In this document: piece after piece, positions 3,938-16,599 of the stretch
Layout: each line of letters opens with the position of its first letter
Numbering within the stretch: the first letter of the stretch is position 1
Origin: a virus
Direction: 5' to 3' (one strand)
DNA length: 21,071 bases
IMG/VR virus record: IMGVR_UViG_3300009505_000085
Span: 1 to 21,071 of that record
Made by a program: the position numbers and the translations under genes
The notes under the pieces: model-generated
Databases searched by the model: none
The model's input: only the letters and a program-made list of their open reading frames with translations
Told to the model about the DNA's origin: nothing

Positions 3938-4290
3938 AAGACGATTTTAATGTAACGGCTTATATTGCTATACCTAAAAAAGACACCGATGATTTTGAGT
4001 CAATTTTAGATAAGAACGACATATATGATTACGAAGTAACTGTCGCTCAAAGAGAGTTCGGACCATTTGGTAGTATAGAATGCATTGACTACCACTTCTA
4101 TCATATTGATTTTGGAAAGGATTTTAGGGGTATTGTAGACATGAATAATTTTATAAGTAAAAAACCAATGACAGATGACAATGATGGCAGGACAATTTTC
4201 TACGTGCAGAATTATGAAAAGATAGGTCGTGCCATTGGAGATTTTTGGTTATGTTACCAGTATTCACTTGTAGTTGAAATAGATTGCTAA
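3934..4290 (+). CDS. Hypothetical protein
   Basis: A 118-aa protein, start taken at ATG 3934 because it overlaps the methyltransferase stop (ATGA); an in-frame ATG 45 nt upstream lies inside that gene. Acidic and rich in aromatic residues (IYDYEVTVAQREFGPFG, YHFYHIDFGKDF), consistent with a small alpha/beta domain. No family recognised. It shares one base with the recombinase gene (TAATG). Confidence 0.65.
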   Translation: MKDDFNVTAYIAIPKKDTDDFESILDKNDIYDYEVTVAQREFGPFGSIECIDYHFYHIDFGKDFRGIVDMNNFISKKPMTDDNDGRTIFYVQNYEKIGRAIGDFWLCYQYSLVVEIDC

Positions 4291-4976
4291 TGAAAAAATA
4301 CATAGCATACTACAGAGTATCAACACGCAAGCAAGGTGATTCTGGTCTTGGTCTTGATGCTCAGAAGAGAATGGTTCAAGGATATGTTGGTAGCACCATC
4401 ATACTTAATGAGTTCACTGAGGTTGAGTCTGGTACAAGCAAGGGCAAACGACCAATACTACAACAGGCAATTCAAAAATGCCAAGATGAAAACGCTACCC
4501 TCGTCATAGCTAAGATAGACCGACTGTCTCGTAACGTAAACTTCGTATCAAATCTGTATCAATCAGGTGTTGACTTTGTGTGCTGTGATATGCCACACGC
4601 TAACAAGTTAACCATACATCTTTTTGCGGCAGTAGCAGAGCATGAGGCTGATATCGTATCAGAAAGAAACAAGGCGGCTGCTCAGTCAATCAAGAAGATT
4701 ATAGAACGTGATGGGCATTACATATCTAAAGCTGGGAACAAGATAACTAAGTTGGGAGGAAATGACAACCCAAACACTTTACCTGCAACAATGGCTTTGA
4801 AAGAAAAGTCTCGTAACAACAGGAACAAGAATGTTGCAAGACCATTTGCTCAAGAGTTACGTAGGCAAGGTATTGGATACTGCACTATTGCTCACAGACT
4901 AAATGAGGCAGGTTACAAAACATCAAGAGGTAAGATGTATTATGACAAGACAGTTTACAGACTTTTAAATGATTGA
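4290..4976 (+). CDS. Small serine recombinase (resolvase/invertase family)
   Basis: A 228-aa protein. The N-terminal catalytic domain (about 1-140) has the nucleophile region YYRVST (Arg9, Ser11), the KIDRLSRN motif (75-82, Arg78 and Arg81) and EHEADIVSERN (117-127) at the start of the long helix. The C-terminal part (about 183-226) has an HTH-like arrangement (ARPFAQELRRQGIGYCTIA, then HRLNEAGY). It is shorter than large phage serine integrases (over 400 aa) and near resolvase/invertase size. It could integrate, resolve or invert DNA; no attachment site was found. Start chosen at ATG 4290, which overlaps the previous stop by one base; a TTG 6 nt upstream is unlikely. Confidence 0.9.
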   Translation: MKKYIAYYRVSTRKQGDSGLGLDAQKRMVQGYVGSTIILNEFTEVESGTSKGKRPILQQAIQKCQDENATLVIAKIDRLSRNVNFVSNLYQSGVDFVCCDMPHANKLTIHLFAAVAEHEADIVSERNKAAAQSIKKIIERDGHYISKAGNKITKLGGNDNPNTLPATMALKEKSRNNRNKNVARPFAQELRRQGIGYCTIAHRLNEAGYKTSRGKMYYDKTVYRLLND

Positions 4977-5076
4977 AATTCAAGTTTACTTAATTATTCA
5001 AATAGTCATCATTCAAATGTTGGCTGTATTAATGAATTACTTACATAAAAGACATAATGAAAAAAGGAAAGATTAA
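4969..5076 (+). CDS. Possible 35-aa single-TM membrane peptide
   Basis: ATG 4969 overlaps the end of the recombinase gene by 8 nt and opens 35 codons to TAA 5074-5076, overlapping the following gene by 20 nt. The product has a hydrophobic stretch (VYLIIQIVIIQMLAVLMNYL, residues 6-25) followed by a basic tail (HKRHNEKRKD), the pattern of a one-pass membrane protein with a cytoplasmic C-terminus. It would account for the otherwise empty 80-nt gap. Three ATTCAA repeats in this stretch mostly reflect repeated Ile-Gln codons. Confidence 0.45.
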   Translation: MIEIQVYLIIQIVIIQMLAVLMNYLHKRHNEKRKD

Positions 5077-6377: not shown

Positions 6378-6392
6378 ACCAAAGACAAGAAA

Positions 6393-6524
6393 ATGAAAAG
6401 ATATCAAATCAGACGTAAGGACAGGCGTAACACGCTAAGTGTTAAGAAGTACACCTTTCCGATGTGGTTTATGATGAACCTAACAACAGTAATACTAATA
6501 TATATAATGATTAAAGTAAATTAA
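6393..6524 (+). CDS. Small membrane protein, 43 aa
   Basis: ATG 6393 opens 43 codons to TAA 6522-6524, filling a gap of about 150 nt. A basic N-terminus (MKRYQIRRKDRRN, VKKY) is followed by one hydrophobic segment (FPMWFMMNLTTVILIYIMI, about residues 22-40). This gives a one-pass protein with a cytoplasmic N-terminus by the positive-inside rule. The next gene starts 1 nt after its stop. Function unknown. Confidence 0.55.
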   Translation: MKRYQIRRKDRRNTLSVKKYTFPMWFMMNLTTVILIYIMIKVN

Positions 6525-6525
6525 A

Positions 6526-7666: not shown

Positions 7667-7935
7667 AAGTACATATACACTTGAGTAGTGAACATATTTC
7701 CGAAGAAGATAATATACGTTATGAGGATAATCCAATCGAAACGTATTGGGATATACCAGTGTTACCCAACAAGGGAGATAATATTGGATTAGAATCAATT
7801 GTAGGTATCCAAAATGTACCCGAATCAATAGACAATCGTAATCTGTCTTGGACTGTTGAGCGTATTTTTTACTTTAGAGATTATGACAGCTACAAGATAA
7901 TTCCAACAATTTACTTAGAAGGTAGAAAAAGATGA
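7663..7935 (+). CDS. Hypothetical protein
   Basis: A 90-aa protein joined to both neighbours by 4-nt ATGA overlaps, so it is translated with the initiator and the primase-helicase. Mostly beta (MKVHIHLSSEH, YWDIPVLPNKGDNI, SWTVERIFYFRDYDSYK), with an acidic first half and a basic end. No family recognised. The tight coupling suggests a replication accessory role, which is inference. Confidence 0.65.
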   Translation: MKVHIHLSSEHISEEDNIRYEDNPIETYWDIPVLPNKGDNIGLESIVGIQNVPESIDNRNLSWTVERIFYFRDYDSYKIIPTIYLEGRKR

Positions 7936-9794
7936 CAGAACTGTTTGAAAGAGAGATAAGCATATACGAGAGTCTGTTCGATGTAGACTCTTCTCATGTG
8001 ATTACTGTAGGTCAAGCTCTAAAACGAATCAAGCAAGGTAAGAGCAGAGGGAAGGTTGAGCAAATAAGGAGACTTGGTAGCGGAGAAGAACGTGATAGTG
8101 TTAAGAAGAGTCTTCCATCGCCATTGTTTTCAGGAGTCTTCAAGTCACGTAACGACAACAACATAATCTCATACACGGGATTGATATGCTTGGACTTTGA
8201 CCACTGTAATATCGCTGACAAGATAGCCGAACTAAAGAGGAGTAAATATGTAGTGTCTTGCTGGGTGTCTCCAAGCGGTAATGGAGTTAAGGCTTTAGTT
8301 CAAGTTTCAGAGCCTGAGAGACACTTAGAACATTTCGATGCGCTTCTTGAGGACTTTAAAGACCTTGATCCGTCAGGAAGAAACCTTAGTAGGATATGCT
8401 TTGAGTCTTACGACCCTAAGATTTACGTTGCAAGGAAGTGGGATGTGTATGATAGGTTTGTTGAGAAGGTGTACGAGGCTATGCCCATCAAGGTAACGAC
8501 AAACAACACCGTCTACGAGAAGCTAAAGAAGTGGATGATTAACAAGGGCGAGGGTTTCTTTGAAGGTAACCGAAACAATTTCGTATTCAAACTTACCTGT
8601 GGATGTCTGAGGTTCGGTCTTACCAAAGACGAAGTACGTGACTCTATGATTGGCGATTTCTGCGGAGGTTCGTTTACTGTGAAGGAGTTAGATGTTATTT
8701 TAAACTCTGTCTACAGAAACTACATCTCAGACTTTAATACTGCCGAGTTTACTGATGACGATAGGCTCATACATAGCGTAACAAGGGAGAGCATAGAAGA
8801 GAAGCTTGAATCATTAGATGGACCGCTTGAGGATGTGATATACCTTAACGACATATTTGACGATATGCTCAAGGACTTTCACTCTGGAAATCAGAAGGGT
8901 GAGACAACGCACTTTCCAGGTATTGACGAAAGGTTCAGGTGGATGCGTGGTGAGATAACAATTGTAGGTGGCATTGGTAACTTCGGTAAGTCTACGATGA
9001 TGTTACAGCTAATGCTTATGAAATCTTTGATGGACGGGTATAAGTGGGCGATATTCTCTCCCGAACAGTATCCACCTAAGTTCTTTTACAACCAATTGAT
9101 TCACGCTATGGTAGGAAAGTCACCGTACAAACATCATCAGAACCAAATGTCTGAGGAAGAATATCGTAAGGCGGCTGAGAAGATTAACGACAAGTTCTTT
9201 TTCATCTACCCTGAGAAGGAGATGCCAAGTCAGGACTACATAAACAGAAAGTTCGTGGAGACAATGATTAAGCACAACATCGATGGGTGTATGATTGACC
9301 CGTTTAATGCGATATACCGTGACCGAAGTACAAGAATGCGTGACGATCAGTATCTTGAGGACTTCTTCCGAGTACAGAAGAAGTTTGCTTTGGAGAATAA
9401 CGTCTACATGGTGATTGTAGCACACCCAAACAGCTCCATACAGAAGGATGAGCGTACAGGTGACTACAAAACCCCAAGGGTGTATGATTTTGCAGGTGGG
9501 GCAATGTGGAACAATAAGGCTGATAACATAATAATGTTTCACAGACCATTCTACAACTCACAACCGCAAGACTCTACGTCTTTATTTATTTCTCAGAAGA
9601 TTAAGAAAAAGGAGCTGAACGGGACTACTGGCGAGGCTATGCTCACATACGATGTGATGAAAGGTCGATTCTATGACGATGGGATTAACCCCTTAGAGAG
9701 GGATGAAAATGCATACACAGTACCTAACAGTAGGGCTATGATTAACGCAAGGCTTCCATATAATGATGACGATAATTTGGATGTTCCATTTTAG
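7932..9794 (+). CDS. Primase-helicase: BT4734/VirE-type primase fused to SF4 helicase
   Basis: A 620-aa fusion. Residues about 60-175 match the BT4734/VirE N-terminal type archaeo-eukaryotic primase domain: GLICLDFDHCN has the metal-binding Asp pair (D88, D90), and WVSPSGNGVKALVQV (111-125) the second motif. Residues about 195-265 form a helical primase-C-type linker (FEGNRNNFVFKLTCGCLRFG). Residues about 325-580 are a RecA/DnaB-like ATPase: Walker A GGIGNFGKST (346-355), ATFSPEQ-equivalent AIFSPEQ (373-379), Walker B GCMIDPF (452-458) and VIVAHPN (494-500). It would unwind and prime DNA at the phage fork. The extreme C-terminus, DDDNLDVPF, mimics the acidic tip of SSB proteins. The start overlaps the previous stop (ATGA). 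Confidence 0.85.
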   Translation: MTELFEREISIYESLFDVDSSHVITVGQALKRIKQGKSRGKVEQIRRLGSGEERDSVKKSLPSPLFSGVFKSRNDNNIISYTGLICLDFDHCNIADKIAELKRSKYVVSCWVSPSGNGVKALVQVSEPERHLEHFDALLEDFKDLDPSGRNLSRICFESYDPKIYVARKWDVYDRFVEKVYEAMPIKVTTNNTVYEKLKKWMINKGEGFFEGNRNNFVFKLTCGCLRFGLTKDEVRDSMIGDFCGGSFTVKELDVILNSVYRNYISDFNTAEFTDDDRLIHSVTRESIEEKLESLDGPLEDVIYLNDIFDDMLKDFHSGNQKGETTHFPGIDERFRWMRGEITIVGGIGNFGKSTMMLQLMLMKSLMDGYKWAIFSPEQYPPKFFYNQLIHAMVGKSPYKHHQNQMSEEEYRKAAEKINDKFFFIYPEKEMPSQDYINRKFVETMIKHNIDGCMIDPFNAIYRDRSTRMRDDQYLEDFFRVQKKFALENNVYMVIVAHPNSSIQKDERTGDYKTPRVYDFAGGAMWNNKADNIIMFHRPFYNSQPQDSTSLFISQKIKKKELNGTTGEAMLTYDVMKGRFYDDGINPLERDENAYTVPNSRAMINARLPYNDDDNLDVPF

Positions 9795-9796
9795 CT

Positions 9797-9816
9797 AACG
9801 GTTTGGCTATGTGTAG
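9797..9816 (+). repeat. Intergenic AACGG..GGCTATG motif, copy A
   Basis: The 67-nt gap after the helicase gene contains AACGGTTTGGCTATGTGTAG. Two related copies lie after each of the next two genes. Around this copy an imperfect hairpin can be drawn: GGT (9800-9802), GGC (9805-9807), a 10-nt loop, GCC (9818-9820), ACC (9822-9824), with unpaired bases between the arms. Beyond the repeat the gap is A/T-rich with no clear promoter. Confidence 0.5.
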
Positions 9817-9861
9817 TGCCGACCTTGATAAATTACTGCACTAATAAATAAAGATAAAATT

Positions 9862-10074
9862 ATGAGTAAAGAACTGAACAACCAAGAGGAAAATAAGGCA
9901 TTACATATAGGAGGTGTTGTGCGTAGTGCGGATGTAAATATAGTAGATAGCGATATTGCAACCATTGAAGCCTTACACGATTTATTATTAGATGCTCACG
10001 GATATTCACTTGACTTTAGAACACTGAGAAAAGCTAGGGAATTAACTGCAAAAATGTATAAAGCACTTTATTAG
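9862..10074 (+). CDS. Hypothetical protein in motif-bracketed insertion
   Basis: A 70-aa protein. The N-terminus is polar (MSKELNNQEENK), then a strand (ALHIGGVVRSADVNIV) and two helices (ATIEALHDLLLDAHGYS, RTLRKARELTAKMYKALY). No family recognised. Unlike other genes in this arm it is separated from both neighbours by about 60 nt, and each gap carries a copy of the AACGG..GGCTATG motif. This suggests it entered as a unit. Confidence 0.6.
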   Translation: MSKELNNQEENKALHIGGVVRSADVNIVDSDIATIEALHDLLLDAHGYSLDFRTLRKARELTAKMYKALY

Positions 10075-10084
10075 TATTACGCAC

Positions 10085-10105
10085 AACGGCTACGGCTATG
10101 CACAG
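10085..10105 (+). repeat. Intergenic AACGG..GGCTATG motif, copy B
   Basis: AACGGCTACGGCTATGCACAG lies 10 nt after the stop of the 70-aa gene. It differs from copy A mainly by one inserted base and a changed 3' end; CGGCTA is doubled in tandem. A further AACGG occurs in the same gap near 10113. From memory, closely similar motifs recur between genes in Bacteroidota genomes; I could not check this. Confidence 0.5.
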
Positions 10106-10132
10106 AAATTTTAACGGATTAAAACAACGAAA

Positions 10133-10396
10133 ATGAATACACCAGAAGATTTTTTGAAAGGAATAAATATTAAGGATAGGACTATTAGAGTTCTTACGTT
10201 CAGCGACAAAAATTATATGCTAACTGATTTAATGCTTGACTATGCCAAAGTTTACAGCGAAAGTTTAGTTGCAAAAGTTGATATAGCTGATGTTGTAGGG
10301 CGAAGCGAACAGTTAGTTTGCGATTCTTATTATGCAAACAACCTTTCAATGCAAAAAGAATGTTTGAATTGTGGAAAATTATCAACAGAGCATTAG
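10133..10396 (+). CDS. Hypothetical protein in motif-bracketed insertion
   Basis: An 87-aa protein (MNTPEDFLKGINIKDRTIRVLTFSD at its start, given here as a 20-residue-class lead) with a helical middle (YMLTDLMLDYAKVYSESLV) and a CLNCG pair of Cys near the end (residues 78-81). Its opening resembles many short flavobacterial hypothetical proteins that begin with a xxDFLKG-type helix. It is flanked by motif copies B and C and has 58-64 nt gaps on both sides. Stop is TAG. Function unknown. Confidence 0.6.
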   Translation: MNTPEDFLKGINIKDRTIRVLTFSDKNYMLTDLMLDYAKVYSESLVAKVDIADVVGRSEQLVCDSYYANNLSMQKECLNCGKLSTEH

Positions 10397-10412
10397 CAAA
10401 CTAATTGCCTAC

Positions 10413-10431
10413 AACGCCTAGCTATACATAG
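10413..10431 (+). repeat. Intergenic AACGG..GGCTATG motif, copy C
   Basis: AACGCCTAGCTATACATAG, the most diverged copy, lies 16 nt after the 87-aa gene. It contains an inverted repeat, CCTA (10417-10420) and TAGG (10429-10432), around an 8-nt loop. An outer pairing AAC/GTT (10413-10415 with 10432-10434) leaves two bases bulged. Copies A and C thus both allow imperfect hairpins with unpaired bases, a feature also of integron attC sites. Confidence 0.45.
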
Positions 10432-10460
10432 GTTATGTTCTGAATAACTAAATTAGCAAT

Positions 10461-10580
10461 ATGAAGAAAAAAGAAAGGGTAATAGATAGGTTGATCAAGT
10501 ATCAACAGGACTACGAGAAGTATATGCAACTAATAAGGGAGCAACTACATATACATAATTCTAAAAAGAAAGAAGGATGA
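10461..10580 (+). CDS. Possible 39-aa charged helical protein
   Basis: ATG 10461 opens 39 codons, and the TGA at 10578-10580 overlaps the exonuclease ATG by 4 nt. The product (MKKKERVIDRLIKYQQDYEK...) is a single basic, probably coiled helix. The ATGA junction matches the general coupling style of this arm, which supports it as a gene despite its length. No family recognised. Confidence 0.5.
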   Translation: MKKKERVIDRLIKYQQDYEKYMQLIREQLHIHNSKKKEG

Positions 10581-11692
10581 AATACGAATGGGTAACAGAA
10601 ATTAAAGACAGAACCCCTGAGTGGTTCGAGTACAGGAAGAACGGACTAGGAGCATCGTCTGCCGCAATAGTCTGCGGTATAAGCCCCTATAAACCTACAC
10701 CGATGCAGCTTTACCACGAGAAGGTGGGGACAATGGAGTCAGAGAGTTTTATGTCTGCACCTGCATTTCACGGTATATACCAAGAGGAGTACGTTGCTAA
10801 CCTTTGGAAGTATTACGATGGCACTGAGGAAGGCTATATGGAGCAGTTTGAAAGTGGGAATATTATACGCCAGGCTGACCATCTTGTGGGATTCGTACAG
10901 AACCCTAAGTACCCACACCTTTATTGCAACTTGGACAGGGTTATTGAGAAGGGTTCACGCAAGCTAAACGAGGACGGAACATTGTCTGATGAGTTGACAA
11001 GTAAACCTTGTCCACTGGAGATAAAGACAATGAATGGTTTTGTCTACAAGAAGTACGATGGCGTTCCTGATATGTACATAATACAGGTTCATCAGCAGAT
11101 GTTGATAATGGAGTGTGACTACGCTGAGATTGCTATACTGATTGACGGAAGAGGCTTTAAGGTATTTCCAATAGAACGTAACGAGGAAATCATTGAGATG
11201 ATAACCGAAAGCACCTACGATTTTTGGAAGAGAGTTATACAAGGAAGACAGGCGTTTATTCAAGCAGAGCAAGCTAAAGAAGACGGAGACTACGACAAGT
11301 ACGATGACTGGATGGGAGTTATCCAACACCTTGAGCCTGAACCTAACGACAACGAACACTACTCAGCGTTTATATCGGAGACTCACGAGGTGGAGCAAGA
11401 GATAATGCAGGGAGATGAAGACCTGTTAATGCAGTGCAAGCACCTTCAGACAGTTAAGTCGATGATTAAGCAACTTGAGAAAGAGAAGCGTGAACTTGAG
11501 AATAAGATAAAGAACGAGTTCAGAAAGGAGTCTGTTGAGAAGATTGAGTTCCCAGCAAATGGCTACATGAGATACTACCAACGTGCCAACAATAAAACTA
11601 AAATGTTGGACGTAAGAATCAACAAGCCAGACGAGTTCACTATAGGTGTAGAGTTAGAAAAAATAGACAGAGAAATAGGATATATCATCTAA
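10577..11692 (+). CDS. YqaJ-type viral recombinase/exonuclease
   Basis: A 371-aa PD-(D/E)XK nuclease of the YqaJ family, the counterpart of lambda exonuclease. Key features are WFEYRKNGLGASSAAIVCGISPY-type opening (residues 16-38), a catalytic Asp in YCNLDRVI (D120), the ExK pair in CPLEIKT (E148, K150) and a helix with a conserved Gln (IIQVHQQMLIM, Q170). Residues about 280-315 form a coiled coil (MIKQLEKEKRELENKIKNE), a common C-terminal addition in phage YqaJ proteins. It should degrade one strand from double-strand ends to give ssDNA for the Erf annealing protein encoded 18 nt downstream. Confidence 0.88.
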   Translation: MKYEWVTEIKDRTPEWFEYRKNGLGASSAAIVCGISPYKPTPMQLYHEKVGTMESESFMSAPAFHGIYQEEYVANLWKYYDGTEEGYMEQFESGNIIRQADHLVGFVQNPKYPHLYCNLDRVIEKGSRKLNEDGTLSDELTSKPCPLEIKTMNGFVYKKYDGVPDMYIIQVHQQMLIMECDYAEIAILIDGRGFKVFPIERNEEIIEMITESTYDFWKRVIQGRQAFIQAEQAKEDGDYDKYDDWMGVIQHLEPEPNDNEHYSAFISETHEVEQEIMQGDEDLLMQCKHLQTVKSMIKQLEKEKRELENKIKNEFRKESVEKIEFPANGYMRYYQRANNKTKMLDVRINKPDEFTIGVELEKIDREIGYII

Positions 11693-15240: not shown

Positions 15241-16599
15241 TTAAACTCCACCACCATCTATTATACCGCCCCATTTAGAAATAAGGCTTGTTCTTGCTGT
15301 TTCTGCTGCTCCACCACTTGTATATTGTGAACCACCGAAATTGACTGTTCCCGAATAAGACATTGCACCTTGTGCATCCCAAGCAATAAGTAACGCATCG
15401 TAGTTAGCAGTTGATAGACCAGTAGCACTTAGCATAAAGTTGCCAAAGTTGCTTACTTGGTTAATATCCCAACTACCAATGTTTTGGTCAAAGGAGGTGG
15501 CACCTCGGAACATACCGCTCATATTAGTCACACTACTCACATCCCAACTGCCAATGTTTTGGTCAAAGGGTGTATTATAGAACATAGCGTTCATAGTAGT
15601 CACACTACTCACATCCCAACTGCCAATGTTTTGGTTAAAGGAGGAGGCAAAACCGAACATATAATTCATAGTAGTCACACTACTCACATTCCAAGCGTCA
15701 AGGTTTTGGTCAAAGGAGGTGGCATCTCGGAACATATAATTCATATTAGTCACACTACTCACATTCCAAGCGTCAAGGTTTTGGTTAAAGGAGGTGGCAC
15801 CATAGAACATTTCGCTCATACTAGTCACATTACTCACATTCCAAGCGCCAATGTTTTGGTCAAAGGAGGTGGCACCTCGGAACATAGCGTTCATATTAGT
15901 CACACTACTCACATCCCAAGCACCAATGTTTTGGTCAAAGGAGGTGGCACCTCGGAACATAGCGACCATATTAGTCACACTACTCACATCCCAACTGCCA
16001 ATGTCTTGGTCAAAGGAGGTGGCATCTCGGAACATAAGAGACATATTAGTCACATTACTCACATTCCAAGCGCCAATGTTTTGGTTAAAGGAGGTGGCTA
16101 AATAGAACATATAGCTCATATTAGTCACACTACTCACATCCCAAGAACTAAAGTCTGGAGTTGTTAATGATGAACAACCACTAAATGTATATTGTAAATT
16201 TGTACCGCTAATTATTGGATAATCTGTTGCCGATATGTCTAAATTACTACATCCTTGAAATATCCTATCATTTGAAATATCAAATCCTCCCCAATTGCTT
16301 ACGTCAACTATTTTCCTTTTATCACCACCATTGTTAAATCGGAACGTGTTAACTGTACCTTCAATCGTAACCGTATAAGTTCCGCCCGAAGCGTAGGTAT
16401 GCGTGTTTGATGTATCTGTATTTCCATCTCCCCAATCAACTGTAGGTCCTGCTATCATAGGTAGGACAATAGTATCACTTGCAGAGCCTGCCTGTGTAGT
16501 GTCCCAAGTTGAAACGAAGTTGGGGTTTGGAGGTGTACCTCCTCCACCAAAGGCGGCAATCCTAAATGTAGTTCCTATGCCATTGTGTATGCCAGGCAT
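15241..16599 (-). CDS. Surface/adhesion protein with PKD-like domain and DUF285 repeats
   Basis: A 452-aa protein. Residues about 28-85 contain a PKD-type signature ([20 protein letters not shown], then TYTVTIEG). Residues 152-375 hold nine 25-residue repeats of the DUF285/BspA kind ([25 protein letters not shown]), one of which is a residue short. A degenerate tenth ([14 protein letters not shown]) and a unique C-terminal region follow. DUF285 repeats are known from surface proteins of Mycoplasma, BspA-like proteins and marine Bacteroidota. In a phage late operon, next to fibre genes and just before lysis, the likely role is host recognition at the tail tip or decoration of the virion (inference). 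No signal peptide seen. Confidence 0.8.
15475..16146 (-). repeat. Tandem 75-bp coding repeats (DUF285)
   Basis: Nine consecutive in-frame units of 75 bp, one reduced to 72 bp (coding for NTPFDQNIG where others have [10 protein letters not shown]). Units share long near-identical blocks such as those encoding [10 protein letters not shown] and ATSFDQNIG. Variation is concentrated at the residues just after the MF pair and at the S/A-W-D/N position. Such similarity allows gain and loss of units by recombination. Confidence 0.9.

Follow-up and report, generated by a model that had tools for sequence, protein, structure and literature searches.

Putative integron-type cassettes behind the helicase gene of a virus, and related arrays in Bacteroidota phages and chromosomes

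Two small genes and their complementary arms

Two small genes that lie between the helicase and exonuclease genes of a virus raise the question of what they are and how they came to be there. The stretch analysed, termed here the window, comprises 21,071 nt (IMG/VR virus record IMGVR_UViG_3300009505_000085, positions 1 to 21,071). The two open reading frames are at 9862-10074 (ORF 1) and 10133-10396 (ORF 2). Neither translated protein has a match in Pfam or PHROGs, neither was found in isolated phages, and an Rfam search gave no match. The isolated-phage match that was detected concerns the attC/leader DNA only, in Cellulophaga phage phi19:1 (70%), where gp109 reads MKTNIVGTTKGIRTKALHVSGVIV... 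Other genes of the window include a serine recombinase of the resolvase family in the left arm (4284-4976) and, on the minus strand at 15241-16599, a structural-type protein of tandem repeats that is BspA/DUF285-like by eye.

An initial annotation of the region described gaps of 58-67 nt around the two genes in an otherwise gap-free left arm, three copies of a short motif in these gaps and a motif-gene-motif period of about 290-330 bp. The gaps measure 67, 58 and 64 nt, the motif copies start at the AAC at 9797, 10085 and 10413, and the period is 288 and 328 bp; the left arm, however, has further gaps at ~4977-5056 and ~6378-6525. Taken by itself, the motif AACGG..GGCTATG is weak, as it has two matches with three or fewer mismatches, which 7 of 100 shuffles equal. 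Imperfect hairpins had also been proposed for the first and third copies, but the stretch from the first copy to the first R box folds at the level of shuffles on both strands (z ~0.1).

The strong signal at this site is formed by complementary arms, which the initial annotation overlooked (Table 1). A 10-nt arm inside ORF 1, GTTGTGCGTA, is complementary to TACGCACAAC after ORF 1, and a second complementary pair, GTTGTAGGGC and GCCTACAAC, flanks the body of ORF 2. As in integron cassettes, these R''/R' arms flank the gene, are complementary within a cassette and differ between cassettes, and the motif corresponds to half of an attC site of integrons. A stable structure arises only when the ends of cassette 1 are joined as in a circle: the inner L''/L' stem is then present, and the attC fold has stems of 11 bp (outer) and 14 bp (inner; z -2.3). 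In cassette 2, R arms of 9 bp form the outer stem and the L stem is partial; the long attC of this cassette overall folds no better than shuffles. The better-folding strand in the window is the one that carries the genes. The unit limits first drawn, 9795-10105 and 10106-10431, were replaced by those given in Table 1.

Table 1. Features of the helicase-exonuclease region of the window
Feature	Position	Strand	Remarks
Primase/helicase gene	7932..9794	+	BT4734-like N domain, DnaB_C; upstream of array; stop codon is the insertion hotspot
Left edge TAGCTAA^CGG	9792..9799	+	Putative crossover 9798/9799, immediately 3' of helicase stop; same in viral locus L020
Cassette 1, 288 bp: attC, leader, gene body	9799..10086	+	Unit set by AA^C crossovers as in phage Freya
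attC L arm GGCTATGTGTAGTGCC, cassette 1	9805..9820	+	Fold
Start codon and 18-codon leader MSKELNNQEENKALHIGG inside attC, cassette 1	9862..9915	+	20/20 copies in frame
Partner L arm GGCATTACATATAGG, cassette 1	9897..9911	+	Fold; in-frame coding gives ..KALHIG.
R box/arm GTTGTGCGTA, cassette 1	9916..9925	+	GTT is a Val codon; partner 10078-10087
Gene 1 body (VVRSADVNIVDSDIATIEALHDLLL..)	9916..10074	+	Purifying selection; known behind three other leader types
Closing arm TACGCACAAC, cassette 1	10078..10087	+	Putative AA^C crossover 10086/10087
Cassette 2, 328 bp: attC with long leader, gene body	10087..10414	+	
Start codon and 53-codon leader MNTPEDFLKG..VAKVDIAD inside second attC	10133..10291	+	
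Gene 2 body (VVGRSEQLVCDSYYANN..)	10292..10396	+	Opens with arm GTTGTAGGGC (from 10292), Val codon in frame
Closing arm GCCTACAAC, cassette 2	10407..10415	+	Putative AA^C crossover 10414/10415
Phage flank right of array	10415..10460	+	Alignable with relatives' intergenic site (..ACATAGGTTATGTTCTGAATAACTAAATTAGCAATATG)
YqaJ/RecE-like exonuclease gene	10577..11692	+	Downstream of hotspot

It is proposed that the two genes are integron-type cassettes, inserted site-specifically after the helicase stop codon, and that they represent a phage-borne branch of an integron system of Bacteroidota. The probability of this reading, which is drawn from sequence comparison, is put at nearly nine in ten. The initial annotation had likewise suggested that the genes came in as cassettes, and this is upheld by the paired arms, the attC-type fold, the clean boundaries in relatives and the exact gain and loss of units in isolates of Polaribacter phage Freya (PMC8776804). 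The cassette anatomy and the clean insertion are evident in the sequences compared.

Chromosomal arrays and the insertion site in phages

The exact 18-mer of the motif is found in 90 genomic stretches, mostly of Bacteroidota. The motif is not universal in the phylum, as most of 148 genomes spread over the phylum are at background. At motif sites of Bacteroidota chromosomes a matching upstream arm is present in 95 of 159 cases, against 2.6% for shuffled arms. In a pattern search of 23 such genomes, up to 75 sites per genome were detected, and the reversed pattern gave 0-2 per strand. They are arranged in chains in which 117-126 nt separate the arms in 124 of 149 cases. Covariation is seen between the L''/L' hexamers (eight perfect distinct pairs versus 1.5 when shuffled). 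Chromosomal genes run opposite to the motif (142/149), and the canonical attC is thus the reverse complement of the motif, ..AAC-AACG-GGCTATAATTCATTGC....GCAACGAAACCATAGCC-AAACC-GTT...

Chromosomes of marine Flavobacteriaceae carry large arrays with the window-type site. In ~20 of 26 chromosomal loci (L237-L262) the array is preceded by a co-oriented integrase of ~375-400 aa. These integrases belong to the XerA/'integron integrase' type, lack the IntI insert and carry an additional domain of ~100 aa at the N-terminus. In an uncultured Flavobacteriaceae genome, one array of ~45 kb (L263-L265; G002:C3, ~475,500-519,700) comprises dozens of attC sites that all point the same way; almost none are reported for the phylum by standard integron searches.

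That many Bacteroidota chromosomes carry the motif between genes had been anticipated, and from this it could be argued that the motif is a dispersed REP/MITE-like Bacteroidota repeat, brought in with host DNA by illegitimate recombination and with the genes as passengers; its weak significance in the window would also fit. Such an origin is nevertheless highly improbable. Every gene body has its own complementary arms, which differ between cassettes and which a dispersed intergenic repeat of this kind would not have, the spacing is fixed near 120 nt, cassette chains have an integrase at one end, and Freya isolates gain and lose exact units. The earlier suggestion of a Bacteroidota intergenic repeat therefore survives in that the same half-site fills the marine flavobacterial integron arrays, but not as an alternative to cassettes.

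Viral relatives of the window were collected by means of the helicase and the exonuclease. The gap between these two genes varies: it consists of 43-65 nt only, or contains a 303-nt gene, HNH-type genes or arrays of small genes. The arrays are found in four lineages, the window type (also L003), L020, L024/L025/L027 and L096, and each array gene is flanked by its own complementary arms, e.g. TTATACCAC..GTGGTATAAC in L024. Compared with the empty relative L026, the array of L024/L025/L027 interrupts the TAGAAC behind the helicase stop precisely at AA^C. The comparison of presence and absence in relatives proposed at the outset thus yielded empty sites and the exact L024 insertion, but not the window's own site. 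The exact empty site predicted for the window phage (TAGCTAACGCCTAGCTATACATAGG; helicase stop plus CTAACGCCTAGCTATACATAGG) is absent from 374 loci, and this, together with the shuffle-level fold of cassette 2 and the lack of an integrase in the record, counts against the cassette explanation.

Other occupants of the hotspot differ in structure. HNH-type genes in L016, L021, L023 and L099 lie behind a conserved leader of ~130 nt that contains a promoter-like box, TATATCTTTGTG, and an inverted repeat, GTTCCAAG..CTTGGTTC. In L020 the C-terminal coding sequence of the helicase recurs after the array, at ~8900-9000, as if the array and an alternative gene end had been inserted as one.

Gain and loss of cassettes can be followed in cultured phages. 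Polaribacter phage Freya carries an array, an AAC^ACCCC site and an integrase, and seven isolates (1, 2, 5, 6, 8, 9 and 10) were compared. The published genomes of Freya isolates are 44.0-48.9 kb in size, and the authors take the integrase as a sign of temperate life (PMC8776804); the word integron is absent from the text of that paper. The flanks of the arrays are identical over the compared stretches and the differences are exact gains or losses of cassettes, bounded by ..AAC and the site ACCCCTATAACAACAATAAG that precedes the integrase or, in isolate 8, by two attC sites. Isolate 6 has a cassette that is not seen in isolate 10, and a 307-bp cassette separates isolates 9 and 10; the gene in the latter cassette has a leader, ..LRIGG, that continues into V-SNRR through an in-frame GTT. 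These differences define the mobile unit as attC, leader and body, broken at the AAC that follows the gene. The sequence common to all junctions is AAC only, which is too short for homologous recombination. A crossover at the leader-side G^TT was considered and dropped, as the polarity of chromosomal attC sites is opposite and the Freya breaks are at the AAC after the gene. Isolates of the sister phage Danklef, with genomes of 47.2-48.2 kb, have one integrase and variable size, and cassette turnover is likely there also (PMC8776804).

The hotspot might also be a mosaic in which homologous recombination by the phages swaps small genes, the attC remnants being fossils of host integrons with no role. 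The phage encodes RecE- and Erf-like recombination proteins, the gap in relatives also holds the 303-nt gene or HNH-type genes without attC, and the duplicated helicase C-terminal segment of L020 follows an array. This reading is considered unlikely. The edges of arrays fall at AA^C, the L024 insertion is exact with respect to the empty L026, and the Freya junctions share no more than three nucleotides. Insertion or loss at precisely G^TT/AA^C is what both L024 and the Freya isolates display.

Phage integrases, inverted genes and leader peptides

In the window record of 21 kb, which is possibly incomplete, no integrase was recognised. In the viral contig L269, by contrast, a cassette array is followed by a 267-aa tyrosine recombinase with 46% identity to the integrase of a chromosomal array, and L269, other viral contigs and Freya have the complete integron arrangement of integrase and attI beside the array. 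Relatives of the L269-type integrase are found in 99 viral contigs, some larger than 300 kb, and mostly beside such arrays. Some metagenomic 'viral' contigs may include DNA of bacteria; Freya, phi19:1 and P12002L are isolated phages. Upstream of the integrase the density of arm pairs is five times that downstream (1.48 versus 0.29 per kb). In 33 arrays of at least three cassettes, 157 genes are co-directional with the integrase and 7 have the opposite direction. The last AAC precedes the integrase by 33-57 nt in many arrays. AAC^ACCCCTATAACAAC is a candidate partner site of attC for the phage integrase.

Both the integrases of the chromosomal arrays and those of the L269 type score below the cut-off of the IntI model TIGR02249 (265 bits). 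The match breaks at about model positions 180-240, and the IntI-specific region is missing. Phylogenetically, the viral integrases sampled group in a single supported clade; those of Freya and Ingeline are on long branches and their placement is less sure. The enzymes of the clade found beside arrays presumably move the cassettes.

The initial annotation had assumed, by analogy with known integron cassettes, that each gene has its attC behind it. In the window, and in viral cassettes generally, gene and attC do not have this order and orientation. Among 81 viral cassettes, 68 genes have the orientation of the motif and 5 the reverse, versus 11 and 177, respectively, among 197 chromosomal cassettes. 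The viral gene is inverted relative to attC, and attC is therefore at the 5' end of the gene. Many viral genes start inside attC, as both window genes do, and 28 of the 81 start inside the cassette instead.

A host origin of the leader with the ALHIGGV sequence was rejected, as only 2 of 299 genomes carry this type. Given the inverted genes of the phages and the near absence of this leader from chromosomes, the phage arrays are not simply captured host DNA, and both observations further weaken the proposal of a mosaic with fossil attC sites.

One attC type is present in 22 viral stretches and always has an ATG and a leader ending in ..KALHI.. or a close variant. The distance from the ATG to the GTT of the R box is a multiple of three (54, 48 or 69) in all 20 usable copies, and the distance upstream of the ATG is 57, 58 or 59, with one exception. 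This leader is fused to many unrelated bodies, and the R-box GTT is read as Val. In fused open reading frames of all viral loci, GTT is in the Val frame in 156 cases versus 38 and 10 in the other frames; the same count in chromosomes gives 5, 5 and 2, with no Val excess. At the other end of the body, the TAA stop often overlaps the closing AAC.

Bodies and leaders are found in differing combinations. The gene 1 body, which is also present behind the three other leader types, is 96% identical to that of viral locus L106, and the 60 nt before the GTT are 57% identical (random, 48 +/- 4). The body has a dN/dS of ~0.05 in this comparison, and more body families with differing leaders were observed. 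These comparisons thus make apparent that leader and body are fused in frame through the R box and that leaders exchange their bodies; the leaders are probably translated. An exchange of bodies needs breaks at the leader-side R box; these are absent at the Freya junctions, and the exchange may reflect how new cassettes arise.

Alternatively, the true starts of the open reading frames could lie 3' of the R box, and the ATG and leader before it would be an attC that is open by coincidence. In its favour, many phage genes do start inside the cassette, and substitutions in the leaders are not concentrated at third positions; yet this reading has little probability: the ..KALHI.. leaders are without exception in frame, with an upstream spacing that is not a multiple of three, the excess of the Val frame is lacking in chromosomes, and different leader families end in the same frame.

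A scheme for the phage cassettes would be as follows. Insertion would occur by recombination between A and C of AAC (G^TT on the other strand) just past the helicase stop. For the inverted gene, attC would be the source of the 5' leader and the start codon and, in many cases, of a leader peptide in frame; the GTT of the R box would be read as Val where leader and body join, and the complementary R box would close the body, frequently through a TAA stop overlapping AAC. Related phages appear to encode the recombinase beside the array, an Xer-like tyrosine recombinase without the IntI insert, and cassettes closed at AA^C may be exchanged by such a phage- or host-encoded integrase acting on the folded attC. 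For the window phage the integrase may act in trans, supplied by a co-infecting phage, by a host integron or by a part of the genome outside the record. The exact cassette gain and loss in Freya is evident from the genomes compared. It appears rather likely, at a lower level of confidence than for the window cassettes, that Bacteroidota phages, apparently including very large ones, carry active integrons of their own, with an Xer-like integrase lacking the IntI domain, an attI site and inverted cassettes whose attC gives the start codon and a leader peptide; with the boxes read as a Val codon and a stop, bodies devoid of start codons would reassort among leaders.

Relation to known integrons and meaning

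The arrays resemble the sedentary chromosomal integrons (IntI, attI and attC arrays) of Vibrio and Xanthomonas in the R''/R' and L''/L' arms, in the G^TT crossover, and in consisting of small, mostly unknown genes in cassettes that are gained and lost singly. They differ in that the recombinases are without the IntI-specific insert, and in that the phage genes are inverted in the cassette, often start inside attC and are co-directional with the integrase.

Integrons and attC clusters are known in phages, and in the study of Qi et al. (2023; PMC9892861) IntI1 recombined attC sites taken from virulent phages. Two attC sites of Polaribacter phage P12002L were tested there with IntI1 and one was confirmed; these sites have the same anatomy and gene orientation as the phage type described here. 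That study reports integrase-free attC clusters in virulent phages, as well as fragments of host integrons, whereas related phages here carry their own integrase clade beside the arrays. The available text does not mention Cellulophaga or flavobacterial phages by those names, nor inverted genes or attC-encoded leaders. Fused cassettes of class 1 integrons also have a reading frame that crosses the boundary of a recombination site, but, according to the abstract of one such report (PMC4670013), these are rare and arise from loss of attC, and the fusions described here are systematic, in a fixed frame and with an intact R box. In the searchable literature, which takes in only a minority of subscription journals and no preprints, no account was found of inverted cassettes with attC-encoded leaders or of the phage integrase clade.

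For Bacteroidetes proper, IntegronFinder 2.0 lists a single complete integron, that of Salinibacter ruber (PMC9024848). Set against this, the tens of sites in arrays of marine Flavobacteriaceae and the arrays in phages suggest a large, overlooked system of gene exchange between phages and hosts. Cassette expression and formation become testable in the cultured pair Freya and Polaribacter sp. HaHaR_3_91, where turnover is already visible. A recombination site that codes for protein in a fixed frame would swap bodies behind different N-termini in one step and, if true, this would represent site-specific exon shuffling in prokaryotes.
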